Origin: Struthio camelus | Taxonomy: Eukaryota > Chordata > Aves > Struthioniformes > Struthionidae | Length of the DNA: 64,000 nucleotides | Direction of reading: 5' to 3' | Assembly (NCBI RefSeq): GCF_040807025.1 | Contig: NC_090942.1 | Span: 181,239,247 to 181,303,246, forward strand | In this document: one piece after another, positions 3,001 to 52,400 of the stretch | How positions within the stretch are numbered: the stretch's first letter is position 1 | Layout of the letters: the number at the start of each line of letters is the position of its first letter | Notes under the pieces: generated by a model | Databases searched by the model: none | What the model saw: the letters and a program-made list of their open reading frames with translations, nothing else | What the model was told of the DNA's origin: nothing | Position numbers and translations under genes: made by a program

Positions 3001-3389
3001 TTTTTCTTTAGCGTAAAATTTCTCTCTCCTGTTCTGTCCTTCCAGCCAATATTCTGGTCTATATATTAGCTGTCTTTTGCTTTGACAGCTTTAGCCTTCT
3101 CCTGTCCAGCCTTTCCACCTTTCTTTGTCCATTTTTTTCAAAGTTTCACAGTTAAATGAATCACTCTCTTCTGGAAATCCAGCCTTGTAACTTGCTGTCC
3201 TCTAAACTTTTCACCATCTCATCATACTCATGATCAGTATACATTTCTTCAAATTCTACAAAGCATTGCTCCACATTTCAGTTCCAGTATTTTTCCCAAA
3301 TCTACTCTAATAGTTCTTCTGAATGCTTCCTTTATTCTCTTGAGAGAGTTTTATATTGTTTGCTTTTGTAGCAATCTCTTTAGGTTGAA
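1..3389. other. AT-rich intergenic DNA, no gene seen
   Basis: This stretch is clearly richer in A and T than the rest of the window. Its open frames are all short, show no recognisable protein family and are not joined by plausible splice sites. I see no tRNA or rRNA structure and no long tandem repeat. It may contain old dispersed repeats that cannot be classified by eye. Confidence 0.6.
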
Positions 3390-3404
3390 AACCACGACCA
3401 TGAG

Positions 3405-4142
3405 ATGGTGGAGTTCAGGATCCTGCGAGGAGGGAGCAGGGCAATAAGTAGGACTGCAATGCTGGATTTCAGGAGAGCTAACTTTGGCCTCTTCAGGGAC
3501 CTACTTAGGGGAATCTCATGGGGGAGGGCCCATGAGAAGGAAGGAAGACTAGAAGGAAGAGGGGCCCAAGAAAGCTGGTTAATATTCAAGCATCCCCTCC
3601 TCCAGGCTCAAGATGGGTGCATCCCTCTGAGTAATAAGCCCAGCAAAGCGGGCAGGAGACCTGTGTGGATGAGCAAGGAACTCCTGGCAAAACTCCAGCA
3701 GAAGAAGGAAGTCTACAGAACGTGGAAAAGGGGACGGGCCACTTGGGAGGAATACAGGGACGTTGTCAGAGTGTGCAGGGATGCAATGAGGAAGGCTAAG
3801 GCCCAGTTGGAATTAAATCTGGCAAGGGATGTCAAGGGCAACAAGAAGGGCTTCTTCAAATGCATCAATAGCAAGAGGAAGCCTAGGGAAAACGTGGGCC
3901 CGCTGATGAATGGGGCGGGTGCCCTGGTGACGAAGGATACAGAGAAGGCAGAGTTGTTGAATACTGCCTTTGCTTCCGTCTTCACTGCTAAGGCCAGTCC
4001 TCAGGAATTCCAGACCCTGGGGACAAGAGAGGAAGTCTGGAGAAAGGAAGACTCTCCCTTGGTGGAGGAGGATCAGGTCAGAGATCTTTTGTCCAAACTT
4101 GACATCCGTAAATCCATGGGCCCCGACGGGATGCACCCATGA
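3405..4142 (+). pseudogene. CR1 ORF2, N-terminal fragment (linker and start of reverse transcriptase)
   Basis: This is 245 residues of CR1 ORF2 after the endonuclease core: the MVEFRILRGG segment, a lysine- and arginine-rich linker, and the region leading to GPDGMHP, which opens the reverse transcriptase fingers. It ends at the TGA in 4140-4142. The expected reading is R-V-L-R-E-L, so the stop looks like CpG decay of [11 protein letters not shown] follows directly after the stop in the same frame, which shows this is a point change and not an end of homology. The ATG at 3405 is an internal methionine of the family, not a real start. Confidence 0.9.
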
Positions 4143-4161
4143 GTGCTGAGGGAGCTGGCGG

Positions 4162-5562
4162 ATGTTATTGCTAGGCCACTCTCCACCATCTTTGAAAGGT
4201 CCTGGAGATCAGGAGGTGCCTGAGGCCTGGAAGAAAGCCCATGTCAGCCCAGTCTTCCAAAAGGGCAAGAAGGAGGAGCCAGGAAACTCCAGGCCTGTCA
4301 GCCTCACCGCCATCCCTGGAAAGGTGATGCAACAGCTCCTCCTGAAGGTCATCGCTAAGCATCTGGAGGACAAGAAGGTGATCAGGAGTAGTCAGCATGG
4401 ATTCACCAAAGGGAAATCATGCTTGACCAATCTGATAGCCTTCTCTGATAGGATGACTGGCTGGGTGGAGGAGGGGAGAGCAGTGGCTGTTGTCTGCCTG
4501 GACTTCAGCAAGGCTTTTGACACTGTCTCCCATCACATCTTCCTAGGTAAACTGAGGAAGTGTGGGCTAGACGAGTGCATGGTGAGGTGGATTGAGAACT
4601 GGCTGGATGGCCGAGCTCCGAGGGTTGGAATCACTGGTGCAGAGTCAAGCTGGAGGCCTGTAGCTAGTGGTGTCCCCCAGGGGTCAGTCCTGGGTCCAGT
4701 CTTGTTCAATATATTCATCAGTGACCTGGAGGAAGGGACAGAGTGCACCCTCAGCAAGTTTGCTGATGCTACTAAACTGGGGGGAGTGGCGGACACACCA
4801 GGAGGCTGTGCTGCCACTCAGAGGGACCTGGACAGGCTGGAGAGGTGGGCGGAGAGAAACCTCCTGAAGTTCAACCAAGGCAAGTGCAAGGTCTTGCCCC
4901 TGGGGAGGAATAACCCCATGCACCAGAGCAGGCTGGGGGTTGACCTGCTGGAAAGCAGCTCTGCAGAGAAGGACCTGGGAGTGCTGGAGGACGACAAGTT
5001 AAGCATGAGGCAGCAGTGTGCCCTTGTGGCCAAGAAGGCCAAGGGTATCGTGGGTTGCCTTAGGGAGAGTGTTGCCAGCAGGTGGAGGGAGGTGATCCTG
5101 CCCCTCTCCTCAGCCCTGGTGAGACCTCACCTGGAGTGCTGTGTCCAGTTCTGGGCTCCCCAGGACAAGAGAGACATGGCACTCCTGGAGAGAGTCCAGC
5201 GGAGGGCTACCAAGATGATTAGAGGGCTGGAGCATCTCTCCTCTGAAGAAAGGCTGCAAGAGCTGGGCCTGTTCAGCCTGGAGAAGAGAAGACTGAGAGG
5301 CGATCTCATAAATGTGTACAAGTATCTGAAGGGGGAGTGTCAAGAGGATGAGGCCAGCGTCTTCTCTGTGGTGCCATGTGACAGGACAAGAGGCAACGGG
5401 CACAAACTGAACCACAAGAGGTTCCATCTGAACCTGAGAAAAAACTTCTTCCCTGTGAGGGTGACAGAGCATTGGAGCAGGTTGCCCAGAGGGGTAGTGG
5501 AGTCTCCTTCGCTGGAGATATTCAAAACCCGTCTGGATGTGATCCTGGGCAATATGCTCTAG
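4162..5562 (+). pseudogene. CR1 ORF2, reverse transcriptase and C-terminal fragment
   Basis: From about 4215 this frame carries the CR1 reverse transcriptase palm and thumb and the C-terminal region. Motif A is [12 protein letters not shown] and motif B is [11 protein letters not shown]. Motif C reads FADATKL, while active CR1 has FADDTKL, so one of the catalytic aspartates is lost. The conserved ending LEIFKTRLD is followed by a stop near the element's 3' end. The frame is offset from the preceding fragment because of the small deletion near 4213, and the first dozen or so codons are not family sequence. This is transposon debris, not a host gene. Confidence 0.92.
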
Positions 5563-7077: not shown

Positions 7078-9744
7078 ATGTCTTGTGCCTGGGAGCGAAG
7101 GTCAAAGCACTGCTCAGAACTGGGGGAAGTAGCTGCTTACGTCCCCGACCTGCTTTTGTCTGAGGACTTGAAGCAGGAGAACCGTTGCGTTCAGAACTTC
7201 CACGGAGTGCTGCTCTTTGCGGATGTGTCAGGTGGGTCAAAGCGTTATGAAGGGCGGGCACTGAGGAGGAGTCACCGACCCGAGCCGTTGGGACTTAGCG
7301 GGCCTTTTGGAGCCCTGGTCGTCCCGCCTGTGGTAGAGAAGGGGTCAAAGGAGATGTCGTTTGCTGCTGAGGTCTTCCGCTTTGGGGAAGTAGCGCTCGG
7401 ACGTAGCCGAGGTCACAGCCCGGGGGCGGTCTTTGCTGCCAGCCGCACTGCGGCCTGCTTGTGGTCACCCGTCTGCTCAGAGCAGTGTGCGTAGGGAGCT
7501 CTGAGGCTGCCGGAGCAGCAGCTTGGGCCCGCGCTGTTGACTGCAGTGCTCTCTCCGGAGCTTTGGGGAGGTGTGAGGTGGGCCAGGCTCTGGCTCATGG
7601 AGGCCTGGGAGAGGAGGCCTGGCTGCCTTGCCTCACCCTTGTTAGTCTTTGTCAGGGCAAACTTGGAGGAGCAGCTGCTGCGCAGAGGAGCTGGCTTGCC
7701 AGGTGCTGCGTTAGTTGGCAAAGGCCTCCCGGGCTTTCTAGCTAAGGGTGTTGCCTGGCTGTAGGCAAGAGGGGAGGCAGCCGGGGGACGTGCTGGAGGG
7801 TGGCAGCCAAGTGCAGGAGCTAGGCGTAACGGGTAGGTGTGAGCATGGGGAAGGCGCCCGTCAGCGAGCGCTCAGAAGCGCGGGTGGAATTAGAGGGCTG
7901 TGCCCGCTGTCAGGGGCGCGCCCGGGTTCTCCCGGAGCGTGGTTCTCTTGGCTGGCTGAAAGCGACGTGGAAAGTGCCAGGTCCTTCGGCCCCGTGGACG
8001 CGTCCTGATTTCTTTGTGCCTGTGTGTCCCTGTTGCAGGTTTCACTGCTCTGACAGAGAAATTCAGCCAGAGCATCAGCAGAGAGCGGGGTGCGGATGAG
8101 GTCACGCAAACCCTCAATCGCTACATGGGTGACATTTTGGAGGGTAAGTGCCGTTCTGCAGGACTGTGTGGGATTGGGCCACGACGAGAGAGAGGTGCTG
8201 GGCAGCCTGCTGCTGCTGCTGCCGCCGCCTCCTCCTTGCGCGGGCTGGAGGTTCCCATGGGGCTGAGAGCAGCCGAGAGCAGCTGGGCTCTTCTGGCAGG
8301 TGCTTTCTGCTCCCCACGAAGACTAAGGAGGTGCCCGCTTTCTCAGCACCCACCCTTGGCCTTGTGGAGTGACCGCTGTTCAGTGATGGAGGAAGATTTT
8401 GCTGGTGTTGGGGCGCAGGGGGGAGCGGGTGCATCTAGCCAGTGTTAGTGCCCAAATGAGCCGGGGATGGGGGCGCTGACCAAAGTGTGCGTTACTTTCC
8501 CTGGGGCCTTGTCACAGGGCACAGTAGCGTAGGTCCCAGGGCTGTGGTCCCTGTGAGCAGTGCAGCTGCTACGTTTGCTAAGTTGTGCCCCCAAAGCACC
8601 GCTGCTCTTGTGCTGCTGTCTGAGCAGAGCGGCTTGTCCTGCGGCCTTCCTGAAGAAGGCCTAGCTGCAACTCTTGTTGTGCTTTTTTTTTTCGCTCCGC
8701 AGAGCTGCTGGCTTTTGGTGGAGACATCTTGAAGTTTGCAGGTACGTGTGCGTAAAAGAGACGTGGCCTCGTCTGCTGCAGCTGCAGACGAGTGCTAGGG
8801 GAGAGGGGAGACAGAGCCGCGAGCTGGCAGAGCCCCGAGGGGTGGCTCTGCTGGCACGCAGGTGCCCAGGGGGAGCTGCCGTCCCGGGCCCTGGCGGCGT
8901 GGCTGCAGTTGTAGCTGGCGGGGCAGAGGGGGAGGTGTGCCTGTGGCCAGGGTGCTGTAGTTGAGGAGGAGGCCTTCACCCAAACGCGTTTTCCCTGGCA
9001 CGCCTGCTGGCTTCCGCTGCCCCGGCAGGTGGGTGCAGGTCAGGGAGCGTCAGGTGTCACGAGAGCCGTCCCTGTCCCCTTGCTTTCCCCAGGGGATGCT
9101 GTGCTGGTGCTGTGGAGAGCAAAGCACACGCAGCTGAGGGACACCATCAGCCTGGTGCTGCAGTGTAGCCAGCAAATCCAGGAGAAGTACAGGATCCGTG
9201 AGACGGACGTGGGTCTGAAGCTCCGATTGAAGATAGGTACGGGGAGTGCCGGATTAGGCTGCTGCGCGTTCTCAGGCAGGCGTTCACGAGCTGCCTGCAT
9301 GCAAAGTGAGCCGGTGGCCGGCCAACGTGCCGGTGTGGGGCCCCTGATGAGGACCCCCTCCCCGGCCATGATCAGTCCTGAATCCATAAAGTGGGTGCTT
9401 CACCTGCACTCGAAGCAGTTGAGCGGGAAGAGCCCGGCTCCAGGGCTGAGCTTCAAAGTTGGCCTGGGAGGAGCTGAGCTGTGGCGGGCTGTGGAGGTAA
9501 AAATGCTCTCTGCATCAGTTGTGCTTGTCTCTCACCAGGGATCTCTGCAGGGCATATGTCCCTCCTGACTGTTGGAGACAAAAAGCAGCAGCACTTCCTG
9601 ATCCTTGGCCAGGCCGTGGGTGAAGTGTGGCAGGCCCAAAACCTTGCCAATGCAAGTGACGTGATCCTGTCACCCAGCTGCTGGGAGCTCTGTAACCAGA
9701 ACAAGATCAAGACCAAGAGACTTAAAGGCCAAAGCGCTGTGAAG
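7078..9744 (+). other. Copy 1, C1 cyclase domain (exons 1-5, residues about 43-216)
   Basis: Class III cyclase first half. LLFADVSGFTAL carries metal ligand Asp49, and FGGDILKFAGD carries Lys97 (bicarbonate-pocket lysine in human) and metal ligand Asp101. GQAVGEVWQAQN (exon 5) has Trp178 (codon 9628-9630) where human GQAVDDVRLAQN has Arg176. Numbering is a constant +2 from human across this domain, so the alignment is secure. The matching spans are 28234-30900 in copy 2 and 49413-52079 in copy 3. Confidence 0.9.
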
Positions 9745-12700
9745 GTGGGTGGGATGGCCTCTGGAGCAATTCTGAGGGCCTAGCCGTGGCCGTGGCTGCG
9801 AGGGAGGAAGGTGCGAGGAGGGCGAGGAGACGCGCGTGGAGGGAGTTCTAGGTGTCGACGTAGGTGGGGAGCAGTAGCTGTTGGGGAGCAGTTTTGTCTC
9901 CGGGTTGTCTCTGGATTCTGCTGGGTGGCGTTGAAGAGGGGGTCAGGAGGCGCTGGAAGAGCCTGCCTCAACGGGTACTGTCCTCTGTGGGTGCTGGAGC
10001 TGTCCTCGACGCGTTTTTGTACTGTGTGCCTTTAGGTTACAGGCATGGAACGGATGTCTCTGTCGGAACGCGAAGACATCTTCTCCAAGTTTACCCGAGC
10101 CCAGCTGAACTACAGTTCTCCTGAGGCGTCAGGTGAGGCCCATCTTCATGATGTTCTGTGGCTGCCCAGAAAGGTGGGGGCGGGCTTGTTCAGGGGCCAG
10201 CGAGGAACGCCCTCTGCCCTCTCCCCCTTGCAGTTAGCATTTGTGCCTTTGGCCCTGGTGCGCTTCAGCGGAGGCACTCGCTGCTTCCCCCTCCTTCCAG
10301 GGGCCTGCTCTGGCTGAGCACCTGCAGGAGGAAGAAACGTGCAACTGGAGGAGACTTTCTCTCCCTGAGTTCCAGTGCCAGCCCCTGCTTTCCAACTGCT
10401 TTTCCCTAGGCAGGCTCGTAGTGCCAGCCTGCCAGTCACCGCCTGGATTTTCCTTCCCTAGGCATCCTGAGGCCTGCTGTTACCCTGGCCCCTCGGCATG
10501 CTCTGGGGAAGCTGCTGCGGAAGTACGTCCCCGCATCTGTTCTGAGGAAGGTATGGCCACAGCTGCCGGGAGCTGTGTTTTTTTTTTTGCCCCGAGGGGA
10601 GGATTTATTCCTTCCGCGGAGAGCGCGGGCTGCTGCCCACGTGTGGGCTCTTGCTTGGTGTTTGCTGGAGGCAGTCAGCTCTCGGGGAGAGCTGGCTGCT
10701 GAAGGTGTCCCGCTCTCGTCTTCCAGATTGATGACAGGCAGCCCCCGGACTACTTGTCCGAGCTACGGCCGGTCACCTGCCTCTTTGTCAAGCTGCAGTT
10801 TGCTGCCGATGTCAACTTAACGCAGATCTGCAAGGCTATCCAGGACAGCAGCGTGATGATGTTGGAGATCATCCGGCCTCACAAGGGCGAGATCAACAAA
10901 ATCTCCATGTTTGATAAAGTGAGTGTGGGGGAGGAGCCCACCCCGCAAAAGCGTGGGCAGCAAACGAGAGGGCAGTGGCTCTCTCGCTCTACTGAGCAGT
11001 GGGGAAAGGAGAAGCAGCTCTGCCTCGGCGCTGGGATCAGCACCCTCTGGCTGGGGGTTGCCCTGAAGCTCTGCTGCTCTCGGCAGAGGCTCGACTCGCA
11101 CGGCATGAGCCGTTTGCCGTAGGCGTTGTCACAAGCTGTGCTGCCCCCGTCCTTGGCAGGGCTGCACGTTCCTGTGTGTGTTTGGACTCCCTGGAGAGAA
11201 GCTGCCCGACGAAAGCGTTCACGCCTTGGAAAGCGCTCTTAAAATCTCCAAGGCGTGCTCCTCGAGGCCTAGGAAAATCGAGTGAGTGGGGAGGCGCGTT
11301 GCCCGGGACTGCGCGGGGGAAGGAGGGAGGGATGGTTTCTCAGCGAGACGTGCCCTCTAGCTTGGCCTCCTCTGTCCCTGGGAGGAAGGAGACAGTGCCC
11401 TGAGAGGTGCCCTTCTTCCCCGCGCCGAGGAGACGTGCTGTGGCCGGCTGGAGTCAGGGACTTTCCGCCCGTCCCAGCTGTGAGGCCTTAGGGGAAGGGC
11501 TGAAAACTGCCTGGCTGCTCTCGGGAGCCCCTTTCACCTGGGGGCGTTACGCTGCGGAGCTCTGCAGGTCCCCGAGGTCTGCCCTGCCAGGGCGGGAGGT
11601 GGTGCGAGGGGAGCTGGGTGAAGGGGTGAAGGTAGGCGGGCAGGCAGGCCTGTGCGCGGGTGCTGCTGAACGCCTGTTGCTCTCCGTGTGTGTCAGGGCC
11701 GTGTCTGTCGGGGTTACCAGCGGGACGGTGTTCTGCGGAGTCGTAGGCCATCGCGTGAGGCACGAATACACAGGTACGAGGTGTTTGGCTGAGGAGTGGG
11801 TGGCTGGGCTGGGTCTGTTCAGCCGGAGCAGTGTGCCAAAGGAAGAGGCAGAGCGGCAGGGAACAGCCTGTTGCCCGTACGTGCTGGGCTGGGACGAGGC
11901 CTGTGGCCTGTGGCCTGTGGCCTGTGGGGAACGAGGGAGGCAGGGCGGGCGCCACTGCGGTGCGGGGGACCGGGCTCAGAGCCTTGTTGTTCCTGTTGGT
12001 TGTGCTGCCAACGGTTTGGGGCTTGCCTGTGCTGGAGGCGATGCAGCCGTTGGCGGTGAAGGGTGGAGCGGGTTGGTTTCATAGGTACGTGAATGCGTGC
12101 TCTCTCTCTGTGGCAGTCATTGGCCAGAAGGTGAATCTGGCAGCCCGGCTGATGGAGCACTACCCTGGGCTGGTGTCCTGTGACGCAGCAACGTACGCAG
12201 CCTCTAGGCTGCCCCGATGGTGCTTCAAGGAGCTGCCGGAGGCAAAGATGAAGGGGGTTGTCGATCCTGGCCCCGTGTATCAATACCTGGGGGTGTCGGC
12301 GAAGTCGTGAGTGTCCTGTTTGAGCGGGCTGGTTGGGGGCAGGGTGGCACACAGGGTCCAGTCTTGGTCCGCCAAGAGGAGTTGTGCAGAGCTGGCCCCC
12401 GCCCACACCTCCCATCGCTGGGGCTGAGAAGATGGAAAGGCAGAGCACAGGTATGCTTTTGGCCTGCCTACGCTGGGGCCTCCTGCTGTAAGGAGACTGG
12501 GAGTGATGCCGGAGGGGTGGAGAAGGCTTTTAGGTGTCCGTAGGCACAGAGGGGCCTTGCAGCCCCTGCCCAAACGGCTTCCAGCTGTGCTTTCTGCCCT
12601 GTGCTTGCTCCATTGCGCGCAAGACTAACGCAGTGGCAATTCTGCCCCAGGGAGGCGTTCTCCCAGCTGCTTCCGAGCATGAGGCTCCCAGAAAGCTTTT

Positions 12701-15700
12701 GATCAGGCCAGGACTCAGTTCCTGAGTGCCTCCTGGTGAAAGTTCAGGTGTTCCCCCGGGCCAGGGTTTGGCATCCTCTTTGGAGGACGTTTGGAAGGTT
12801 GACGTTGCCGTCCCCTTGCAACTTCAGAAAAACTCAAGCCCAAGGTGCCTGGTGCTTGGCGCCTTGGCCCAAGAAGTGACCCTTGTCGTCCTGTTGCACG
12901 TCGTGGCTTGCAGTGTTTTTTCTTGCCCGTCTTTGCCTTGACAGCAGCTGTTGCAGGGCCCCGCTTCTAGAAAGCGCTGCCTGTGAGCACAGGCCAGGGG
13001 ACCAGAGACTTGTTTGGCTTGTCCTGCGGGGTGCAGCAGTGTGCTAGCCAGCGGCACTGCCTGGCTTCTTGCTCATGTCTCTGCTTCCTTGGGCTTTGGC
13101 CTGTGGCGCTCGAGTCTTGATGCTGTCTGGTGTCCCCCTGTGGCCGTTGGGCTTCTTCCTGGCTGCAGCTTTGCTAGTGCTCGTTTGGTGTTTGCGCTCT
13201 CTGCTGGGCCAGTGGGAGCGTGGGCAGGATTTGCTCCGGCTCAAAAGAAGAGCGGGCACCCGGGAGCGCGTACCCTCAGCTCCAGCTCCACGCGTGGCTC
13301 TACGTCCTCCAGCTTCTGCCTACTTAATTGGCTCTTGTTTTTCTCTTCCCGCTGCTAGCGTGTTTGGCATGGATGTTATGAAGGAGAGGTCCGGCTATTC
13401 CCCGTTGCTCGGTAGGTGGAGAACGCCTTGGTCTGCCGAAGGCCGATTTGTTGCCGTCGGTACCTGTTAGTTCCGCTCTGGGAACGGAGAAGCTTTTGCG
13501 AGGGATGGTGTTGCCCGGCGTGGCCCTAAGGGTTTGGTGCATACCTTGGCTCCTAGCTGGTTCCTGTCTTTGGGGTTGGGCCGCAGCTAGAGGTGGGAAG
13601 CAGGGTGAGGCGTGCACCGGGTGCTCCCTGCTGTGCTGCATAGCTAGCGTGGCGGGACCTTTCCAGTGTGCAGTTGCTCACAGCCTCAGGGCTAAAGCGA
13701 TGCCCGTATTTGGGATCGGGGAGGAGATTTCCTTGGGTCTGACTGACCTGCTGCGGCGGCGAGAGAGAAGGGTGCCGACGGCTGTTTGCTTTCCAGCTCG
13801 CTGCAACAGCTCGCTTTCTTGTTTGCCTTCCCAGGTCGGGAGGAGGAGATTGCCCTCTTTGAAAGCTACTTGAAAGCCTACGTGGATAAGAAAGCAAGCC
13901 ACATCATGGCGTTTGAGGGCGTAACAGGCTCTGGAAAGAGCCATTTACTTATGGAGCTTGCCTCTTTAGGCCAGGCTGCTGGGCTCAGGTGAGTGTTGCT
14001 GACCGGGACCTGCGGAACGCTTTCGCTGCCCAGCCGCTGATGTCCGTGGGCTACTGGAGCCCCTCTGCCCGGGTGCGTGGCCCTTGGACTGCAGCATCCC
14101 TGCAAGGCCTGCAGGAGCTGCTGCTGAGGAGCAGCTGCGTGCTCTCCTGCTCCCTCCTGAGGGAGCTAGAGGTGGCTCCTGGAGCCACTGCTGTTGAGCT
14201 TCCTTCTTTGGGCCAGGCACCAAGCAAGGTAGAGCCCGAGCTCAGTCAGGGCTTTGGCCGTAGCCCCAGAGCCAAGAGAAGAAACCCAAGTGGCCCTAGA
14301 TTCCGCCTCTCCCCTAGAGCTTAGTGCGAGAAGCCTGCGGCTGCTTGGGTCCCTCTCTGAATCTCAGTGCCTTTTGCTTCTGCATGGCAGGGTAGTGGCT
14401 GTGGAAGTGCTGGAGCTCAACCTGAAGCAGGTCTACTCTGCCATGCGCATGGTGCTGGCTGTGGCCATGGGCCTGCAGGCCTGTAAATCGTGCAGTGCCA
14501 GACAGCTCGTCCTGCAGGAAAAGCTCCAAGGGCTGGTGGAAGAGAGCAGCTACTGCCTCCTCAACGTGCCTTTCGTCGTTAAGGTGAGAGCGAGAGGCCT
14601 CTGTGGCCGTGGCGAAGGCCTGCTTGTGAGCCGTCCTGTGGCTGTTGTGGTTGGGACACTGTGGCTGGGGAGTGGGCTTAGCTCCCTGGTGGGAGCAGCA
14701 GGAGGGTAGCACAGGCTGTGCTTCTGTTTGTGGGTCCAAAGAGGGGGGCGAGGGGGCCGAGGGGGCCCCTTGTTAGGGGTGAGTGCAGGTGCCAGGCTGC
14801 TGCAGGCAGTTCCTGGGGCCTTGCTCAGCAGCCTGGAAAGGGCATTGCAGAGAGGCTTTGAGAGGGGGCTGATGAGCTGGTGCTGAGTTCACTGGTGCGG
14901 GAGCAGCCTGCTCCCTCGCGCGATTGCCATGGCGAGGGAAGAAGCTCTTCTCCCGCCTCATCCCTCCCTGCAAGAGCTCTGCCAGAGACCCTCAGCAGAG
15001 GGCCTCCGTTGTAGGCTCCCGGTGACGTCCGCGCTGCGTCTCCTCTCCACTGTGTGGGGGAGAGGTAAGATGCTGAGGGCAACAGAGGCGTTTTGCTCGC
15101 TTGGACTTGCGTGGTGGGCAGGTGTGCTGAACCGCCCTGAAAGGCTGTTGCTCTGTGACTCTGCTTTTCCGGCCAGTTTCCCCTGTCGGAGAAGGTGTCC
15201 AAGATGAGCGACGCTCAAAGGACAATGGAACTGGAGTTGGTTTTTAAGAAAGTGCTACAGAAGGTGAGCCGTTCTCCCCATCCTGGGTCAGAGAAGGAAA
15301 GCAAGGCCGCAGGCTGAGGGCTCTGCAGGAGAGCGGTGGGAGCTGGTGGGAGGACAATGTACCGGGGTCATTGCCCTGCAGAGGCTGAACTCCCCGTGCC
15401 ATGTCCCCTGATAACTTTCCTCCTGTGAAGTTGGAGGGCATGTGCTCAGGGGGAGGAGGAACGGTGTCTTTCCGTGCCACCGTGCCCGAGAGACCTTAAG
15501 AGTCTCGGAGCACGGAAGAGCGGGTGAGATTCTGAACGAAGAGGTAGCTGGGGAGAGGAGAGCGACTTCTGCGCGTCCTCTGTGTGGGGAGAGGCCGGCC
15601 AAAGTTTGCCCTGTGGAGGATGCTTGAGAATCCCTCAGAATCCACCCAGACCAACGTGTTTGTTTCAGCTCGTTGAAGACGAACTTGTCCTGTTTGTCAT

Positions 15701-21700: not shown

Positions 21701-24429
21701 CGCGCCTGGCAGCGCTCATGAAGGTCAACACGGCCGAGGAGTCTGAGGATGCGAGTCACGTGAGTGCCTCCTCTCTGCGGCAGCAGACGCGTTTCTGACA
21801 TAGCTCCTTTCCCCTGGCCCGCCTAGAGTACCAGCAGGGTCTGCCCGGGGCGGCAAGAAGAGGCCAAACGCGACGGAGTGGTACCCGTCCCTGAACTTTG
21901 CTTTACAAACTTCCAGCAGACGTGCGTTGCTGCTCTTCTTGGTAGTCGCTCTCATGGCGTTTGTTTCGCCGTTGTAAGCGTTGGGCTGGTTGTGGCTTGA
22001 AGGCAGCACCCCGCTGGGGCCCTCGTCTCGCCGCGGCTGCAGTTAGCAGCGGCAGTCCTAAGAACCGTTTGTCGTAGGGGTGAGAGCCCTGAGAGCAGAA
22101 GAGAAGAGAGCACCTGGCCGTTGGGTTTATGCCCTGAGCCGTCTAGGCCAGAGAGTCACCCTGGCGACATTCAGTCTTGTACAGTCTCCTGTCTGGACCG
22201 TTTTAGATCCTGTTGTCCTACATGGAATATGCGCGGTGCTGCCAGGACCTGGGCTGCCAGGAAGAGTGGCTGCAGTACGGGCGGGCGGCCATCCAGCTTA
22301 GCTCTGACGACGAGCTCTTTGGAGGAGGGGTATTAAAGGCTGCCAAATTTGCCCAGGCCCTGAGCCACCTGAACCTCAGCCTGGGGAATCTGCCCCTCTC
22401 TATCGACGTAGGTACGTACTGCCCCCGCTGCCTGCGAGAAGGCATCTCCGCCAAGGGAGCCTGTGCGAGCCTGCTGGTTTTCTTGGCAGGCTATCGCGCC
22501 AAGAGCCTGTGCATGGAGCTGGAGAGGCCCGACCTGGACTGCGAGGTCCTCGCCACGCTCTTTGCGGCGCTCTTTCTGCAGATGAGGTAATGCTGCTGCG
22601 GGACAGACTGCTGGTTGCGCAGGGTCAGGGGACCACCTGAGATCCTTCTTGTGTCATTCTCTGCGCGCAGCAAAGAGGGCTGCTTGGTTTCTTATTGGAT
22701 ACTCGCTGGCCGTATGGACGCTGGTAAATTAAACAATGCCAAGGGCCGTGGCTGGCTGTTTGGGAGCGTGAGTGTGTGCTGTGAAACTGCTGGAACAGTT
22801 GCTGGCTCGGTTCTGGCCCTTGCCAGGTAGCGCTTGCCCCAGGCAATTCCCAGGCCTGGTTTAGGAGCGAGCCTAGCGCAGGGAGGCGCTCGTTGTGTTT
22901 GGGGCGCTAGCCACGTTTGGTTGGGTGGACGCGGGCCTTTCCACGCCACGCGGCACCGGTGCCCGAGACGGCAGTCGTCCAGGGGGAGGTCTCGAGAGGA
23001 GCAGTTTCTGAAGCAAACGCGTTGTCTGGGCGAGTGCGGAGGGCAGTGGGGAGCTGTGCGTGCTCTTTGGCCTGCTTTTCCTGACAAAGACTTGGATGGA
23101 AAGGGGAGTAGCTCTGCTCCTGGGCCAATGGGAAAGCACTGGCTGCATGGGAAGGATGCCTGAGTTTTGCTCCGGGCCTTGCCGTTTGGGCCGGGGTCAC
23201 TGCAGCCTTTCTCCGGAGACTTGTTGCCAAAAGATGAACAACTGTCTGCTGGAGAAACTCTGATGGCCTTGCCAGAAAGAGCAGCGCAGGGAGAGCGGGA
23301 TGATGGGAAGGGGAGCGGGCAGCGTCCGGAGGTGGTGACTGGGCTCCCACCCCACGGAGAGGCTCCATGGCGGCTCGCTGTGCTCCTCCGCAGGTACCCA
23401 GAATGTGAGGAAGTGCTGCGCAGGCTCGAGAAGCAGGTGGCTGCAGAGCACAGCATCATTGGGCAGGCATACTTCTTCTCCTGCTGCTTAGACCTGTTGC
23501 TTTACGCTGGTAAGTGCTCAGTGAGGAGGGCCCCAGAGAGCCAGGAGGCTTGCAAAGATGCTTTTTCTCCTGCTACAACACGGGCGCCAGAGCCTCCAGC
23601 CATGCTTTCACTTCCTGGGCCGAGTCCTGGGCTATTTGGCTCTGGGTGTGTCTTTGTCTGTCTTTCCTGCCTGCCCTGTCTTTGTTTGCATGTTCTACAC
23701 GTGATCCCAGAGTGATTTCAAAATGCTTGCAATTTCCCTCTTTGCTTCCCGCGTTTTGAGATTCCCCTTTCTGAAACCTCTTCCCAGGCTCACTCTGCTC
23801 TGGCTCCTGGGGAAGCGGGCGGGCATAGCAGTGCTGGGATGTGCCTGACCAGGAGGCATCTAACAGCCTACGCTCCGGAGTGGCTGTCGCTTGCTGGTCA
23901 ATGGCAGCGTGTCTCTGCCAGCGCTCGAAAGCTGCTGAAGAAAAGGGAATAGCTATCTGTGTGGCGCTTGACTAGCCCTGAGGAGCTAGGCTAGAACTCC
24001 AGCCCCTGCCTTGTTCCTGTTTGGTTTTTGCTTGCTCTCTGAGTGGTTTACCTGCCCAGAAATTCTCCAGCTGTGCTTCAGCTTTGTCCTGCTACGAATG
24101 CCCGAGGGAAAACAAGGCAGCGGAGGGCGGCACTGCTTCTCTGCGATGCATTTGTATTACAGGCTGGGAGTACAAGTCATTTGAAGAGTGCAGGAGCTTC
24201 GTTGAGCGGAACGAAGCAAACCGCATCCTCAGCTCGCACAACAGCATCCTGCTTGGACTGTATTCGTCCCTGGCTCTTTGGTAAGTTACAGAGGTGCTTA
24301 GACTGGCGACAGGCCCAGGCAGTGGTTCTGGCAGGGGAGGTGGGAGCTCTGGGCCTGTCGTGTCCCCCGTGCCCTGTCCAACAAGGCGGCCGTCGCTGGG
24401 GTGTAGAGTACTTGATCAAGTACTCTACA

Positions 24430-28233: not shown

Positions 28234-31200
28234 ATGTCTTGTGCCTGGGAGCGAAGGTCAAAGCACTGCTCAGAACTGGGGGAAGTAGCTGCTTACGTCC
28301 CCGACCTGCTTTTGTCTGAGGACTTGAAGCAGGAGAACCGTTGCGTTCAGAACTTCCACGGAGTGCTGCTCTTTGCGGATGTGTCAGGTGGGTCAAAGCG
28401 TTATGAAGGGCGGGCACTGAGGAGGAGTCACCGACCCGAGCCGTTGGGACTTAGCGGGCCTTTTGGAGCCCTGGTCGTCCCGCCTGTGGTAGAGAAGGGG
28501 TCAAAGGAGATGTCGTTTGCTGCTGAGGTCTTCCGCTTTGGGGAAGTAGCGCTCGGACGTAGCCGAGGTCACAGCCCGGGGGCGGTCTTTGCTGCCAGCC
28601 GCACTGCGGCCTGCTTGTGGTCACCCGTCTGCTCAGAGCAGTGTGCGTAGGGAGCTCTGAGGCTGCCGGAGCAGCAGCTTGGGCCCGCGCTGTTGACTGC
28701 AGTGCTCTCTCCGGAGCTTTGGGGAGGTGTGAGGTGGGCCAGGCTCTGGCTCATGGAGGCCTGGGAGAGGAGGCCTGGCTGCCTTGCCTCACCCTTGTTA
28801 GTCTTTGTCAGGGCAAACTTGGAGGAGCAGCTGCTGCGCAGAGGAGCTGGCTTGCCAGGTGCTGCGTTAGTTGGCAAAGGCCTCCCGGGCTTTCTAGCTA
28901 AGGGTGTTGCCTGGCTGTAGGCAAGAGGGGAGGCAGCCGGGGGACGTGCTGGAGGGTGGCAGCCAAGTGCAGGAGCTAGGCGTAACGGGTAGGTGTGAGC
29001 ATGGGGAAGGCGCCCGTCAGCGAGCGCTCAGAAGCGCGGGTGGAATTAGAGGGCTGTGCCCGCTGTCAGGGGCGCGCCCGGGTTCTCCCGGAGCGTGGTT
29101 CTCTTGGCTGGCTGAAAGCGACGTGGAAAGTGCCAGGTCCTTCGGCCCCGTGGACGCGTCCTGATTTCTTTGTGCCTGTGTGTCCCTGTTGCAGGTTTCA
29201 CTGCTCTGACAGAGAAATTCAGCCAGAGCATCAGCAGAGAGCGGGGTGCGGATGAGGTCACGCAAACCCTCAATCGCTACATGGGTGACATTTTGGAGGG
29301 TAAGTGCCGTTCTGCAGGACTGTGTGGGATTGGGCCACGACGAGAGAGAGGTGCTGGGCAGCCTGCTGCTGCTGCTGCTGCCGCCTCCTCCTTGCGCGGG
29401 CTGGAGGTTCCCATGGGGCTGAGAGCAGCCGAGAGCAGCTGGGCTCTTCTGGCAGGTGCTTTCTGCTCCCCACGAAGACTAAGGAGGTGCCCGCTTTCTC
29501 AGCACCCACCCTTGGCCTTGTGGAGTGACCGCTGTTCAGTGATGGAGGAAGATTTTGCTGGTGTTGGGGCGCAGGGGGGAGCGGGTGCATCTAGCCAGTG
29601 TTAGTGCCCAAATGAGCCGGGGATGGGGGCGCTGACCAAAGTGTGCATTACTTTCCCTGGGGCCTTGTCACAGGGCACAGTAGCGTAGGTCCCAGGGCTG
29701 TGGTCCCTGTGAGCAGTGCAGCTGCTACGTTTGCTAAGTTGTGCCCCCAAAGCACCGCTGCTCTTGTGCTGCTGTCTGAGCAGAGCGGCTTGTCCTGCGG
29801 CCTTCCTGAAGAAGGCCTAGCTGCAACTCTTGTTGTGCTTTTTTTTTTCGCTCCGCAGAGCTGCTGGCTTTTGGTGGAGACATCTTGAAGTTTGCAGGTA
29901 CGTGTGCGTAAAAGAGACGTGGCCTCGTCTGCTGCAGCTGCAGACGAGTGCTAGGGGAGAGGGGAGACAGAGCCGCGAGCTGGCAGAGCCCCGAGGGGTG
30001 GCTCTGCTGGCACGCAGGTGCCCAGGGGGAGCTGCCGTCCCGGGCCCTGGCGGCGTGGCTGCAGTTGTAGCTGGCGGGGCAGAGGGGGAGGTGTGCCTGT
30101 GGCCAGGGTGCTGTAGTTGAGGAGGATGCCTTCACCCAAACGCGTTTTCCCTGGCACGCCTGCTGGCTTCCGCTGCCCCGGCAGGTGGGTGCAGGTCAGG
30201 GAGCGTCAGGTGTCACGAGAGCCGTCCCTGTCCCCTTGCTTTCCCCAGGGGATGCTGTGCTGGTGCTGTGGAGAGCAAAGCACACGCAGCTGAGGGACAC
30301 CATCAGCCTGGTGCTGCAGTGTAGCCAGCAAATCCAGGAGAAGTACAGGATCCGTGAGACGGACGTGGGTCTGAAGCTCCGACTGAAGATAGGTACGGGG
30401 AGTGCCGGATTAGGCTGCTGCGCGTTCTCAGGCAGGCGTTCACGAGCTGCCTGCATGCAAAGTGAGCCGGTGGCCGGCCAACGTGCCGGTGTGGGGCCCC
30501 TGATGAGGACCCCCTCCCCGGCCATGATCAGTCCTGAATCCATAAAGTGGGTGCTTCGCCTGCACTCGAAGCAGTTGAGCGGGAAGAGCCCGGCTCCAGG
30601 GCTGAGCTTCAAAGTTGGCCTGGGAGGAGCTGAGCTGTGGCGGGCTGTGGAGGTAAAAATGCTCTCTGCATCAGTTGTGCTTGTCTCTCACCAGGGATCT
30701 CTGCAGGGCATATGTCCCTCCTGACTGTTGGAGACAAAAAGCAGCAGCACTTCCTGATCCTTGGCCAGGCCGTGGGTGAAGTGTGGCAGGCCCAAAACCT
30801 TGCCAATGCAAGTGACGTGATCCTGTCACCCAGCTGCTGGGAGCTCTGTAACCAGAACAAGATCAAGACCAAGAGACTTAAAGGCCAAAGCGCTGTGAAG
30901 GTGGGTGGGATGGCCTCTGGAGCAATTCTGAGGGCCTGGCCGTGGCCGTGGCTGCGAGGGAGGAAGGTGCGAGGAGGGCGAGGAGACGCGCGTGGAGGGA
31001 GTTCTAGGTGTCGACGTAGGTGGGGAGCAGTAGCTGTTGGGGAGCAGTTTTGTCTCCGGGTTGTCTCTGGATTCTGCTGGGTGGCTTTGAAGAGGGGGTC
31101 AGGAGGCGCTGGAAGAGCCTGCCTCAACGGGTACTGTCCTCTGTGGGTGCTGGAGCTGTCCTCGACGCGTTTTTGTACTGTGTGCCTTTAGGTTACAGGC

Positions 31201-34200
31201 ATGGAACGGATGTCTCTGTCGGAACGCGAAGACATCTTCTCCAAGTTTACCCGAGCCCAGCTGAACTACAGTTCTCCTGAGGCGTCAGGTGAGGCCCATC
31301 TTCATGATGTTCTGTGGCTGCCCAGAAAGGTGGGGGCGGGCTTGTTCAGGGGCCAGCGAGGAACGCCCTCTGCCCTCTCCCCCTTGCAGTTAGCATTTGT
31401 GCCTTTGGCCCTGGTGCGCTTCAGCGGAGGCACTCGCTGCTTCCCCCTCCTTCCAGGGGCCTGCTCTGGCTGAGCACCTGCAGGAGGAAGAAACGTGCAA
31501 CTGGAGGAGACTTTCTCTCCCTGAGTTCCAGTGCCAGCCCCTGCTTTCCAACTGCTTTTCCCTAGGCAGGCTCGTAGTGCCAGCCTGCCAGTCACCGCCT
31601 GGATTTTCCTTCCCTAGGCATCCTGAGGCCTGCTGTTACCCTGGCCCCTCGGCATGCTCTGGGGAAGCTGCTGCGGAAGTACGTCCCCGCATCTGTTCTG
31701 AGGAAGGTATGGCCACAGCTGCCGGGAGCTGTGTTTTTTTTTTTGCCCCGAGGGGAGGATTTATTCCTTCCGCGGAGAGCGCGGGCTGCTGCCCACCCCA
31801 CGTGTGGGCTCTTGCTTGGTGTTTGCTGGAGGCAGTCAGCTCTCGGGGAGAGCTGGCTGCTGAAGGTGTCCCGCTCTCGTCTTCCAGATTGATGACAGGC
31901 AGCCCCCGGACTACTTGTCCGAGCTACGGCCGGTCACCTGCCTCTTTGTCAAGCTGCAGTTTGCTGCCGATGTCAACTTAACGCAGATCTGCAAGGCTAT
32001 CCAGGACAGCAGCGTGATGATGTTGGAGATCATCCGGCCTCACAAGGGCGAGATCAACAAAATCTCCATGTTTGATAAAGTGAGTGTGGGGGAGGAGCCC
32101 ACCCCGCAAAAGCGTGGGCAGCAAACGAGAGGGCAGTGGCTCTCTCGCTCTACTGAGCAGTGGGGAAAGGAGAAGCAGCTCTGCCTCGGCGCTGGGATCA
32201 GCACCCTCTGGCTGGGGGTTGCCCTGAAGCTCTGCTGCTCTCGGCAGAGGCTCGACTCGCACGGCATGAGCCGTTTGCCGTAGGCGTTGTCACAAGCTGT
32301 GCTGCCCCTGTCCTTGGCAGGGCTGCACGTTCCTGTGTGTGTTTGGACTCCCTGGAGAGAAGCTGCCCGACGAAAGCGTTCACGCCTTGGAAAGCGCTCT
32401 TAAAATCTCCAAGGCGTGCTCCTCGAGGCCTAGGAAAATCGAGTGAGTGGGGAGGCGCGTTGCCCGGGACTGCGCGGGGGAAGGAGGGAGGGATGGTTTC
32501 TCAGCGAGACGTGCCCTCTAGCTTGGCCTCCTCTGTCCCTGGGAGGAAGGAGACAGTGCCCTGAGAGGTGCCCTTCTTCCCCGCGCCGAGGAGACGTGCT
32601 GTGGCCGGCTGGAGTCAGGGACTTTCCGCCCGTCCCAGCTGTGAGGCCTTAGGGGAAGGGCTGAAAACTGCCTGGCTGCTCTCGGGAGCCCCTTTCACCT
32701 GGGGGCGTTACGCTGCGGAGCTCTGCAGGTCCCCGAGGTCTGCCCTGCCAGGGCGGGAGGTGGTGCGAGGGGAGCTGGGTGAAGGGGTGAAGGTAGGCGG
32801 GCAGGCAGGCCTGTGCGCGGGTGCTGCTGAACGCCTGTTGCTCTCCGTGTGTGTCAGGGCCGTGTCTGTCGGGGTTACCAGCGGGACGGTGTTCTGCGGA
32901 GTCGTAGGCCATCGCGTGAGGCACGAATACACAGGTACGAGGTGTTTGGCTGAGGAGTGGGTGGCTGGGCTGGGTCTGTTCAGCCGGAGCAGTGTGCCAA
33001 AGGAAGAGGCAGAGCGGCAGGGAACAGCCTGTTGCCCGTACGTGCTGGGCTGGGACGAGGCCTTGGCCTGTGGCCTGTGGCCTGTGGCCTGTGGCCTGTG
33101 GGGAACGAGGGAGGCAGGGCGGGCGCCACTGCGGTGCGGGGGACCGGGCTCAGAGCCTTGTTGTTCCTGTTGGTTGTGCTGCCAACGGTTTGGGGCTTGC
33201 CTGTGCTGGAGGCGATGCAGCCGTTGGCGGTGAAGGGTGGAGCGGGTTGGTTTCATAGGTACGTGAATGCGTGCTCTCTCTCTGTGGCAGTCATTGGCCA
33301 GAAGGTGAATCTGGCAGCCCGGCTGATGGAGCACTACCCTGGGCTGGTGTCCTGTGACGCAGCGACGTACGCAGCCTCTAGGCTGCCCCGATGGTGCTTC
33401 AAGGAGCTGCCGGAGGCAAAGATGAAGGGGGTTGTCGATCCTGGCCCCGTGTATCAATACCTGGGGGTGTCGGCGAAGTCGTGAGTGTCCTGTTTGAGCG
33501 GGCTGGTTGGGGGCAGGGTGGCACACAGGGTCCAGTCTTGGTCCGCCAAGAGGAGTTGTGCAGAGCTGGCCCCCGCCCACACCTCCCATCGCTGGGGCTG
33601 AGAAGATGGAAAGGCAGAGCACGGGTATGCTTTTGGCCTGCCTACGCTGGTGCCTCCTGCTGTAAGGAGACTGGGAGTGATGCCGGAGGGGTGGAGAAGG
33701 CTTTTAGGTGTCCGTAGGCACAGAGGGGCCTTGCAGCCCCTGCCCAAACGGCTTCCAGCTGTGCTTTCTGCCCTGTGCTTGCTCCATTGCGCGCAAGACT
33801 AACGCAGTGGCAATTCTGCCCCAGGGAGGCGTTCTCCCAGCTGCTTCCGAGCATGAGGCTCCCAGAAAGCTTTTGGTCAGGCCAGGACTCAGTTCCTGAG
33901 TGCCTCCTGGTGAAAGTTCAGGTGTTCCCCCGGGCCAGGGTTTGGCATCCTCTTTGGAGGACGTTTGGAAGGTTGACGTTGCCGTCCCCTTGCAACTTCA
34001 GAAAAACTCAAGCCCAAGGTGCCTGGTGCTTGGCGCCTTGGCCCAAGAAGTGACCCTTGTCGTCCTGTTGCACGTCGTGGCTTGCAGTGTTTTTTCTTGC
34101 CCGTCTTTGCCTTGACAGCAGCTGTTGCAGGGCCCCGCTTCTAGAAAGCGCTGCCTGTGAGCACAGGCCGGGGGACCAGAGACTTGTTTGGCTTGTCCTG

Positions 34201-48890: not shown

Positions 48891-49412
48891 TCCTCCGAGC
48901 AGCCCTGGAAACGCCCAGCTGCGTGCTGCAGTGGCCGTGCTTTTGGGGAAGCCTGGGCTGCTGGCTGTCAGCATGTCTGTTAGGCCCTTTGCGCTTGGGA
49001 ACGTGGGAACCAGCTGCTGTTTCGGCCACGGGTGGAGGTCAGTCGCTGTGCGAGCCTCCTTCAGCTCTGTACGGGAGACAACTGCGTCGCACTAGCCACA
49101 TCTGAGCAACCGGCTCGGCGTAAGGAGGGAGCTGGGGTAGCTTCCCGGCAGTTGCTGGGTAAGCGGTGCCTTGCAGAGGCTGTCACTGTTAGCTGGATCA
49201 GCGTACGCAACAGTGTACAGGTAAATGATGACACGCGGCCAATGTCACTGTGACCCGATTGTGACCCCCCCCGGCCCCTTGGTGACAGAGGGCCAGCCGC
49301 GCCTCCCCAAGGCCAGTGCGCAACGCTGTGCAGTGGTGTCTGGTCGTCCTCCCTGGTGGGCACGGTGGGTCGTCTTGTACTGAGGTACCGCAGGTACCCC
49401 AGGGCGCTGACG
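48891..49412 (+). promoter_or_regulatory. Shared 5' flank of gene copy 3, candidate promoter and 5'UTR
   Basis: Same 522-bp block, with a CCAAT box at 49239-49243. Its upstream context is the spacer, as for copy 2. Confidence 0.35.
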
Positions 49413-52400
49413 ATGTCTTGTGCCTGGGAGCGAAGGTCAAAGCACTGCTCAGAACTGGGGGAAGTAGCTGCTTACGTCCCCGACCTGCTTTTGTCTGAGG
49501 ACTTGAAGCAGGAGAACCGTTGCGTTCAGAACTTCCACGGAGTGCTGCTCTTTGCGGATGTGTCAGGTGGGTCAAAGCGTTATGAAGGGCGGGCACTGAG
49601 GAGGAGTCACCGACCCGAGCCGTTGGGACTTAGCGGGCCTTTTGGAGCCCTGGTCGTCCCGCCTGTGGTAGAGAAGGGGTCAAAGGAGATGTCGTTTGCT
49701 GCTGAGGTCTTCCGCTTTGGGGAAGTAGCGCTCGGACGTAGCCGAGGTCACAGCCCGGGGGCGGTCTTTGCTGCCAGCCGCACTGCGGCCTGCTTGTGGT
49801 CACCCGTCTGCTCAGAGCAGTGTGCGTAGGGAGCTCTGAGGCTGCCGGAGCAGCAGCTTGGGCCCGCGCTGTTGACTGCAGTGCTCTCTCCGGAGCTTTG
49901 GGGAGGTGTGAGGTGGGCCAGGCTCTGGCTCATGGAGGCCTGGGAGAGGAGGCCTGGCTGCCTTGCCTCACCCTTGTTAGTCTTTGTCAGGGCAAACTTG
50001 GAGGAGCAGCTGCTGCGCAGAGGAGCTGGCTTGCCAGGTGCTGCGTTAGTTGGCAAAGGCCTCCCGGGCTTTCTAGCTAAGGGTGTTGCCTGGCTGTAGG
50101 CAAGAGGGGAGGCAGCCGGGGGACGTGCTGGAGGGTGGCAGCCAAGTGCAGGAGCTAGGCGTAACGGGTAGGTGTGAGCATGGGGAAGGCGCCCGTCAGC
50201 GAGCGCTCAGAAGCGCGGGTGGAATTAGAGGGCTGTGCCCGCTGTCAGGGGCGCGCCCGGGTTCTCCCGGAGCGTGGTTCTCTTGGCTGGCTGAAAGCGA
50301 CGTGGAAAGTGCCAGGTCCTTCGGCCCCGTGGACGCGTCCTGATTTCTTTGTGCCTGTGTGTCCCTGTTGCAGGTTTCACTGCTCTGACAGAGAAATTCA
50401 GCCAGAGCATCAGCAGAGAGCGGGGTGCGGATGAGGTCACGCAAACCCTCAATCGCTACATGGGTGACATTTTGGAGGGTAAGTGCCGTTCTGCAGGACT
50501 GTGTGGGATTGGGCCACGACGAGAGAGAGGTGCTGGGCAGCCTGCTGCTGCTGCTGCCGCCGCCTCCTCCTTGCGCGGGCTGGAGGTTCCCATGGGGCTG
50601 AGAGCAGCCGAGAGCAGCTGGGCTCTTCTGGCAGGTGCTTTCTGCTCCCCACGAAGACTAAGGAGGTGCCCGCTTTCTCAGCACCCACCCTTGGCCTTGT
50701 GGAGTGACCGCTGTTCAGTGATGGAGGAAGATTTTGCTGGTGTTGGGGCGCAGGGGGGAGCGGGGGCATCTAGCCAGTGTTAGTGCCCAAATGAGCCGGG
50801 GATGGGGGCGCTGACCAAAGTGTGCGTTACTTTCCCTGGGGCCTTGTCACAGGGCACAGTAGCGTAGGTCCCAGGGCTGTGGTCCCTGTGAGCAGTGCAG
50901 CTGCTACGTTTGCTAAGTTGTGCCCCCAAAGCACCGCTGCTCTTGTGCTGCTGTCTGAGCAGAGCGGCTTGTCCTGCGGCCTTCCTGAAGAAGGCCTAGC
51001 TGCAACTCTTGTTGTGCTTTTTTTTTTCGCTCCGCAGAGCTGCTGGCTTTTGGTGGAGACATCTTGAAGTTTGCAGGTACGTGTGCGTAAAAGAGACGTG
51101 GCCTCGTCTGCTGCAGCTGCAGACGAGTGCTAGGGGAGAGGGGAGACAGAGCCGCGAGCTGGCAGAGCCCCGAGGGGTGGCTCTGCTGGCACGCAGGTGC
51201 CCAGGGGGAGCTGCCGTCCCGGGCCCTGGCGGCGTGGCTGCAGTTGTAGCTGGCGGGGCAGAGGGGGAGGTGTGCCTGTGGCCAGGGTGCTGTAGTTGAG
51301 GAGGAGGCCTTCACCCAAACGCATTTTCCCTGGCACGCCTGCTGGCTTCCGCTGCCCCGGCAGGTGGGTGCAGGTCAGGGAGCGTCAGGTGTCACGAGAG
51401 CCGTCCCTGTCCCCTTGCTTTCCCCAGGGGATGCTGTGCTGGTGCTGTGGAGAGCAAAGCACACGCAGCTGAGGGACACCATCAGCCTGGTGCTGCAGTG
51501 TAGCCAGCAAATCCAGGAGAAGTACAGGATCCGTGAGACGGACGTGGGTCTGAAGCTCCGACTGAAGATAGGTACGGGGAGTGCCGGATTAGGCTGCTGC
51601 GCGTTCTCAGGCAGGCGTTCACGAGCTGCCTGCATGCAAAGTGAGCCGGTGGCCGGCCAACGTGCCGGTGTGGGGCCCCTGATGAGGACCCCCTCCCCGG
51701 CCATGATCAGTCCTGAATCCATAAAGTGGGTGCTTCGCCTGCACTCGAAGCAGTTGAGCGGGAAGAGCCCGGCTCCAGGGCTGAGCTTCAAAGTTGGCCT
51801 GGGAGGAGCTGAGCTGTGGCGGGCTGTGGAGGTAAAAATGCTCTCTGCATCAGTTGTGCTTGTCTCTCACCAGGGATCTCTGCAGGGCATATGTCCCTCC
51901 TGACTGTTGGAGACAAAAAGCAGCAGCACTTCCTGATCCTTGGCCAGGCCGTGGGTGAAGTGTGGCAGGCCCAAAACCTTGCCAATGCAAGTGACGTGAT
52001 CCTGTCACCCAGCTGCTGGGAGCTCTGTAACCAGAACAAGATCAAGACCAAGAGACTTAAAGGCCAAAGCGCTGTGAAGGTGGGTGGGATGGCCTCTGGA
52101 GCAATTCTGAGGGCCTAGCCGTGGCCGTGGCTGCGAGGGAGGAAGGTGCGAGGAGGGCGAGGAGACGCGCGTGGAGGGAGTTCTAGGTGTCGACGTAGGT
52201 GGGGAGCAGTAGCTGTTGGGGAGCAGTTTTGTCTCCGGGTTGTCTCTGGATTCTGCTGGGTGGCTTTGAAGAGGGGGTCAGGAGGCGCTGGAAGAGCCTG
52301 CCTCAACGGGTACTGTCCTCTGTGGGTGCTGGAGCTGTCCTCGACGCGTTTTTGTACTGTGTGCCTTTAGGTTACAGGCATGGAACGGATGTCTCTGTCG

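Follow-up and report, generated by a model that had tools for sequence, protein, structure and literature searches.

Soluble adenylyl cyclase (sAC), the product of ADCY10, has long been regarded as a general bicarbonate sensor. From sea urchin and salmon, a study of 2026 argues that it is, outside mammals, mostly a sensor of pH, and describes its gene as absent in all but a few birds (PMC12867704). According to that study, K95 and R176 are found in 100 of 100 mammalian sACs, and most non-mammals have a neutral residue in place of one of these charges or of both. Alkaline pH activates the sea urchin enzyme (R to N) and the salmon enzyme (K to N), whereas bicarbonate and Ca2+ do not. In the sea urchin enzyme, K117, which corresponds to Lys95, plays an important part in pH regulation with Mg, pH stimulation of K117 mutants persisted with Mn, and insertion of an arginine at the Arg176 site (N198R) gave no bicarbonate sensitivity. 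In human sAC, both charges are crucial, and neutralising either K95 or R176 greatly lowers catalysis (PMC12867704). Work on the human enzyme presents Arg176 as the switch that releases Asp99, and the Arg176-Asp99 salt bridge as inhibitory in the apo form (PMC12250328).

According to one paper, birds lack sNHE, CatSper is kept in two palaeognaths only, and sAC is patchy, with pseudogene remnants in turkey, duck and pigeon (PMC6660944). ADCY10 is named in penguins (PMC11371425), and ADCY10L1 in chicken (PMC12192435). Testis-expressed amplicons occur on chicken dot chromosomes and on the Z (PMC9974502). In the literature searched, as far as its text was accessible, nothing was found on ADCY10 amplification in birds or on an R176W replacement.

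The window analysed here, a stretch of 64,000 nucleotides from Struthio camelus (contig NC_090942.1, positions 181,239,247 to 181,303,246), contains head-to-tail units, each with an ADCY10 gene. By self-BLAST, unit 1 (6556 to 27711, 21.16 kb), unit 2 (27712 to 48890, 21.18 kb) and unit 3 (48891 to 64000, cut by the window end) all lie on the forward strand; in unit 1 the ADCY10-like catalytic region is complete. Over 21,154 aligned bases, units 1 and 2 show 43 mismatches, and the other pairs show 27 in 15,096 and 24 in 15,110. Six copies taken from other arrays diverge from copy 1 by 3.5 to 3.8% over the 5.2-kb catalytic region, and an assembly artefact of identical copies was rejected on account of both sets of differences. 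Ahead of unit 1, the unique flank contains long reverse-transcriptase-like frames (3384 to 5562), which we take to be a LINE of the CR1 type.

The catalytic region was modelled as 11 exons with AG/GT borders and, within the modelled part, introns of 0.2 to 0.8 kb. In copy 1 (7078 to 12306, forward strand), exons 1 to 6 lie at 7078-7231, 8039-8143, 8703-8741, 9093-9236, 9539-9744 and 10036-10132, and exons 7 to 11 at 10462-10550, 10727-10918, 11160-11281, 11697-11773 and 12117-12306. The same 11 exons are present on the same strand in copy 2 (28234 to 33480) and copy 3 (49413 to 54643), and the encoded protein of 471 residues, free of stops, is identical in all three. It matches human sAC in the PDB with an E-value of 9.9e-148 over model residues 17 to 469. 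The two proteins agree at 229 of 468 aligned positions, and the model carries both class III cyclase domains, C1 and C2, on a single chain (PF00211, 77.7 bits, two stretches). Asp47, Asp99, Lys144, Lys334, Thr405, Asn412 and Arg416, the seven catalytic residues, are all identical to those of human sAC. The alignment thereby upholds the original prediction that Lys95 is retained together with Asp47, Asp99, Lys334, Thr405, Asn412 and Arg416. The residue opposite Lys95 is Lys97 (AAG, 8732 to 8734 in copy 1), and that opposite the metal-binding Asp99 is Asp101 (GAT, 9095 to 9097), both on the forward strand. Downstream of C2, a forward open frame with the P-loop GVTGSGKS (13747 to 13992) may encode the NTPase domain that in sAC comes after C2; its AAA_16 match, seen in this one frame only, scores 25.0 bits, under the cut-off of 32.6. 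A C-terminal exon-like stretch of the unit follows at 22207 to 22413, also on the forward strand.

The residue opposite human Arg176 is Trp178. Its codon, TGG, occurs within GQAVGEVWQAQN at 9628 to 9630 in copy 1, 30784 to 30786 in copy 2 and 51963 to 51965 in copy 3, all on the forward strand, so that the replacement is present in every window copy, as had been proposed. The exon holding it includes GISAGHMSLLTVGDKKQQHFLILGQAVGEVWQAQNLANASDVILSPSCWELC, and the back-translated motif has three matches in the window and none in 100 shuffles. In a phmmer search against the PDB, the exon gave an ungapped alignment to human sAC (four distinct sequences, best E-value 1.1e-18), with W opposite the R of human GQAVDDVR; the identification of the gene as ADCY10 and of the site as the Arg176 equivalent is right, and a misalignment of the residue was rejected since the exon is ungapped. 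For numbering, a human sAC sequence with K at position 95 and R at 176 was used. The constant offset of +2 that had been assumed holds up to about human residue 375, beyond which one extra window residue makes it +3. A neighbouring residue might in principle supply the missing charge, and this was rejected at the level of sequence because ILGQAVGEVWQAQNLANASD contains no K or R. A CpG transition, suggested as the origin of the Trp codon, is possible.

The replacement is not confined to this single residue. The pocket was defined by 21 residues from a docking table in PMC8742349, which names 24; D47, N412 and R416 were counted as catalytic, and the table, whose source says only "adenylate cyclase", is presumed to follow human sAC numbering. 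The pocket is better conserved than the remainder of the alignment: 16 of its 21 positions are identical to human, compared with 213 of 447 elsewhere (one-sided Fisher test, p 0.009). Five positions have changed, namely R176W, F336S, M419E, V167I and V335I. The prediction of a replaced pocket arginine thus stands as to Arg176, but because four further pocket positions have changed it does not describe a one-residue event. Ser338 (TCC, 10904 to 10906) lies opposite Phe336 and Glu422 (GAG, 12155 to 12157) opposite Met419, both on the forward strand. If the new Glu422 has any effect on an anion, it would be to repel it, and the changes at Met419 and Phe336 could move Lys95 in either direction.

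Beyond the window, its own assembly (G000; 1,451,902,618 bases in 262 contigs) was searched. The Trp-bearing exon has at least 140 matches, mostly about 21.2 kb apart. By hand count these fall on nine contigs, designated C1 (10), C8 (6), C17 (14), C33 (9), C70 (7), C173 (7), C176 (53), C194 (30) and C223 (4), of which the 10 on C1 form the array sampled by the window. The array contigs measure 225.6, 39.4, 21.2 and 4.4 Mb, plus five shorter ones; C176, with 53 exon copies in 1.12 Mb, must be almost wholly array. By multiplication, the amplified ADCY10 unit totals about 3 Mb. ADCY10 reportedly belongs to the chicken Z amplicon, as a 2010 paper is said to have found.

A degenerate pattern requiring TGG at the site returned 140 matches (25 forward, 115 reverse), and a reversed-pattern control returned none. 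The corresponding arginine pattern (MGN at the site, in a required GQAVGEV context) had no match in the whole assembly; MGN covers every Arg codon and also the AGY codons of Ser. The human exon, used as a query, gave 140 matches at 49 to 54% identity on the same contigs as the array. As the arginine pattern is absent and the human-exon matches are confined to the array contigs, the assembly gave no sign of an Arg form, and a hidden Arg copy was rejected on the same two grounds. The claim that Trp occupies the site in every copy therefore extends past the window. For the C2-domain exon, 139 matches were counted: 136 lie at 97 to 100% identity and one at 89%, and two, at 95%, are pieces from fused copies. 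The C-terminal exon has 144, of which 139 (three partial) lie at 96 to 100% in array contigs and five on another contig, C21.

The five matches on C21 (at 10230489, 10842882, 11061449, 11099061 and 11466632) have 72% amino acid identity, and each contains a TAG; of the exon queries, only the C-terminal one brought them to light. One stretch there, L102, was read; it matches the unit only from window-equivalent position 18956 on, at 71 to 90%, and is without the cyclase part. On the basis of this one stretch, the C21 matches would be older partial paralogs or pseudogenes.

Parts of CatSper also seem to be present in the assembly. A CATSPERD beta-propeller match (PF15020, 311 bits) on the reverse strand of contig C2 (142905815-142906849) sits in one open frame of 865 residues with no stop, as if in an intronless copy. 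On the reverse strand of contig C16 (942483-944945), CATSPERG (PF15064) is matched by six exon-like stretches in the expected order, one of which has an internal TAG.

We consider it likely, with a probability of roughly 0.6, that the amplified genes encode an active sAC that lacks the bicarbonate switch and is probably gated by pH. In human sAC, bicarbonate draws Arg176 off Asp99, with Arg176 acting both as anchor for the anion and as the switch of the apo state. A tryptophan should neither form the salt bridge with Asp99 nor bind the anion as an arginine does. Without Arg176, there would be no inhibitory bridge and no anion anchor, so that bicarbonate would no longer gate the enzyme. With Lys95 kept and Arg176 neutral, the enzyme groups by sequence with the sea urchin type, and since the Lys95 equivalent of that type is important for its activation by alkaline pH, pH is the most likely cue here. 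A Lys95 network like that of sea urchin should give pH sensitivity; otherwise the enzyme would be ungated, and ungated basal activity is the main alternative to a pH cue. Lys95 is no sure mark of pH gating, because pH stimulation of the K117 mutants persisted with Mn and the salmon enzyme does without that Lys. The bulk of Trp, which is unlike the Asn of the tested enzymes, also counts against this reading. Single-charge loss is usual outside mammals (PMC12867704), and the Trp enzyme is therefore not exceptional in kind. The legend to Fig. 1 of the same paper names K, R, N, M, V, S, Q and T, and W is unnamed there.

It may instead be that the Trp cripples catalysis, leaving a weak or dead enzyme whose copies persist for some other function or are turning into pseudogenes. 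Such an outcome seems unlikely in view of the copies themselves. Together with the three window copies, 40 others were read through the catalytic region, making 43 of 140 (C1 10 of 10, C8 6 of 6, C17 2 of 14, C33 7 of 9, C70 7 of 7, C173 3 of 7, C176 1 of 53, C194 3 of 30, C223 4 of 4). The region is complete in 39, and these 39 contain no stop and no exon indel, with AG/GT borders intact; W178, K97, S338 and E422 are each present in 39 of 39. The four copies excluded from the counts are L010, which starts after exon 1, L041, which is cut by a contig end, and two with internal deletions, L021 (C223:15367) and L028 (C194:73238). The latter share the same deletion, in which window-equivalent position 9699 is joined to 12178, fusing exon E of the C1 domain into exon J of the C2 domain. 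Two deleted copies and one truncated copy among the 43 are what decay might produce, and sAC pseudogenes do occur in some birds (PMC6660944).

Variation among the copies points the other way. The 39 complete copies fall into three subfamilies: the C1-contig array (10), a group on C8 at 0.7 Mb (4) and the others (25). Between the subfamily consensuses, dS is 0.030 to 0.033 and dN/dS is 0.28, 0.25 and 0.31, each below 1 (Fisher p 0.0038, 0.0034 and 0.0085, in comparisons that share sequences and are not independent). Across the 39 copies, there are 25 synonymous and 33 non-synonymous distinct codon variants, with non-synonymous variants below the neutral expectation (p 0.0008). Singletons (8 synonymous, 15 non-synonymous) fall only slightly short of the ratio of about 3.2 expected under neutrality and are much weaker evidence. 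All of these statistics ignore gene conversion within arrays. An avoidance of key positions by this variation was rejected as evidence: none of the 30 variable positions overlaps the 28 pocket and catalytic positions, but since chance gives the same at p 0.15, this carries no weight.

As Trp is found in all three subfamilies, it would be older than their split, unless it was spread by conversion, and purifying selection would have acted on the Trp enzyme. With a dN/dS of 0.25 to 0.31 between subfamilies, the Trp form has been kept under purifying selection since that split. The marks of a pseudogene (stops, frameshifts, a dN/dS near 1) are absent from the 39 complete catalytic regions. Purifying selection, together with the conservation of all seven catalytic residues, argues against a dead enzyme. 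Human sAC made neutral at K95 or R176 loses much activity (PMC12867704), and since the R176-neutral mutants of the human enzyme are less active, the Trp enzyme could be weak.

Two other readings start from the loss of gating and from copy number, and both are improbable. In the first, loss of the Arg176-Asp99 brake would make the enzyme constitutively active, with output set by gene number, Ca2+ or ATP and not by an anion. The inhibitory nature of that bridge in apo human sAC (PMC12250328) and the 140 exon copies are in keeping with this, but the neutral human mutants are less active, not more (PMC12867704). In the second, which we put forward with equal reserve, gene dosage would have replaced allosteric control: a pocket-filling Trp would have removed the switch, some 140 Trp copies would offset the lost stimulation, and cAMP in sperm would be set by copy number and pH. 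The link that this proposal draws between lost gating and the roughly 140 copies is speculation.

An enzyme that tolerates the Trp and still responds to bicarbonate by means of Lys95 and the other pocket residues alone is the least probable of all: Lys95 is kept and most pocket residues (16 of 21) match human, but both charges are crucial in human sAC, the Arg176-neutral sea urchin enzyme gave no response (PMC12867704), and one pocket position has acquired a Glu.

Here a presumably internally fertilising bird keeps a selected and highly amplified sAC that is without the switch arginine. In what is presumably a bicarbonate-rich fluid, this would provide a natural test of whether environment or descent lies behind lost bicarbonate sensing. 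The same case would test whether copy number can replace an allosteric switch.

Among described systems, one set of comparators is the bacterial sAC-like cyclases (Chloroflexi, Actinomycetes and others). A scan of bacterial and archaeal genomes turned up 53 loci, and the frame was usable in 52. These cyclases share the metal-binding Asp with the enzyme described here and, where aligned throughout, the C1-C2 layout. At the Lys95 column, 34 of 52 have Lys. The Arg176 column has a letter in 24 of 52 (Ala 13, Gly 4, Ser 2, Phe 2, Val 1, Lys 1, Leu 1), and neither Arg nor Trp is found among those 24 loci. As a multi-copy tandem array, with 140 exon copies mostly about 21.2 kb apart, the locus resembles an avian testis amplicon. 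The testis amplicons of chicken dot chromosomes (PMC9974502) likewise form long tandem arrays with many intact copies. It differs from them in that the gene is ADCY10 and that the contigs reach 225.6, 39.4, 21.2 and 4.4 Mb, plus shorter ones.

With the catalytic domains of human ADCY10 (PDB 4clf, 4oya and others), the enzyme has in common the C1-C2 layout, the seven catalytic residues and Lys95; it departs from them in having Trp for Arg176, Ser for Phe336, Glu for Met419, and Ile for Val167 and Val335. Relative to the mammalian, bicarbonate-regulated type, it therefore has Lys95 (in 39 of 39 complete copies) but not Arg176. The pH-regulated sACs of non-mammals, as described in PMC12867704, have K95 or R176 neutral, and the K/W combination seen here agrees with that definition. 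Another counterpart is the class of sea urchin (Arbacia) in the same source, in which, as here, the Lys95 equivalent is kept and the Arg176 position is neutral. The Arbacia enzyme has Asn at that site and its activation by pH has been measured, whereas in this array the residue is Trp and activation by pH is a prediction.
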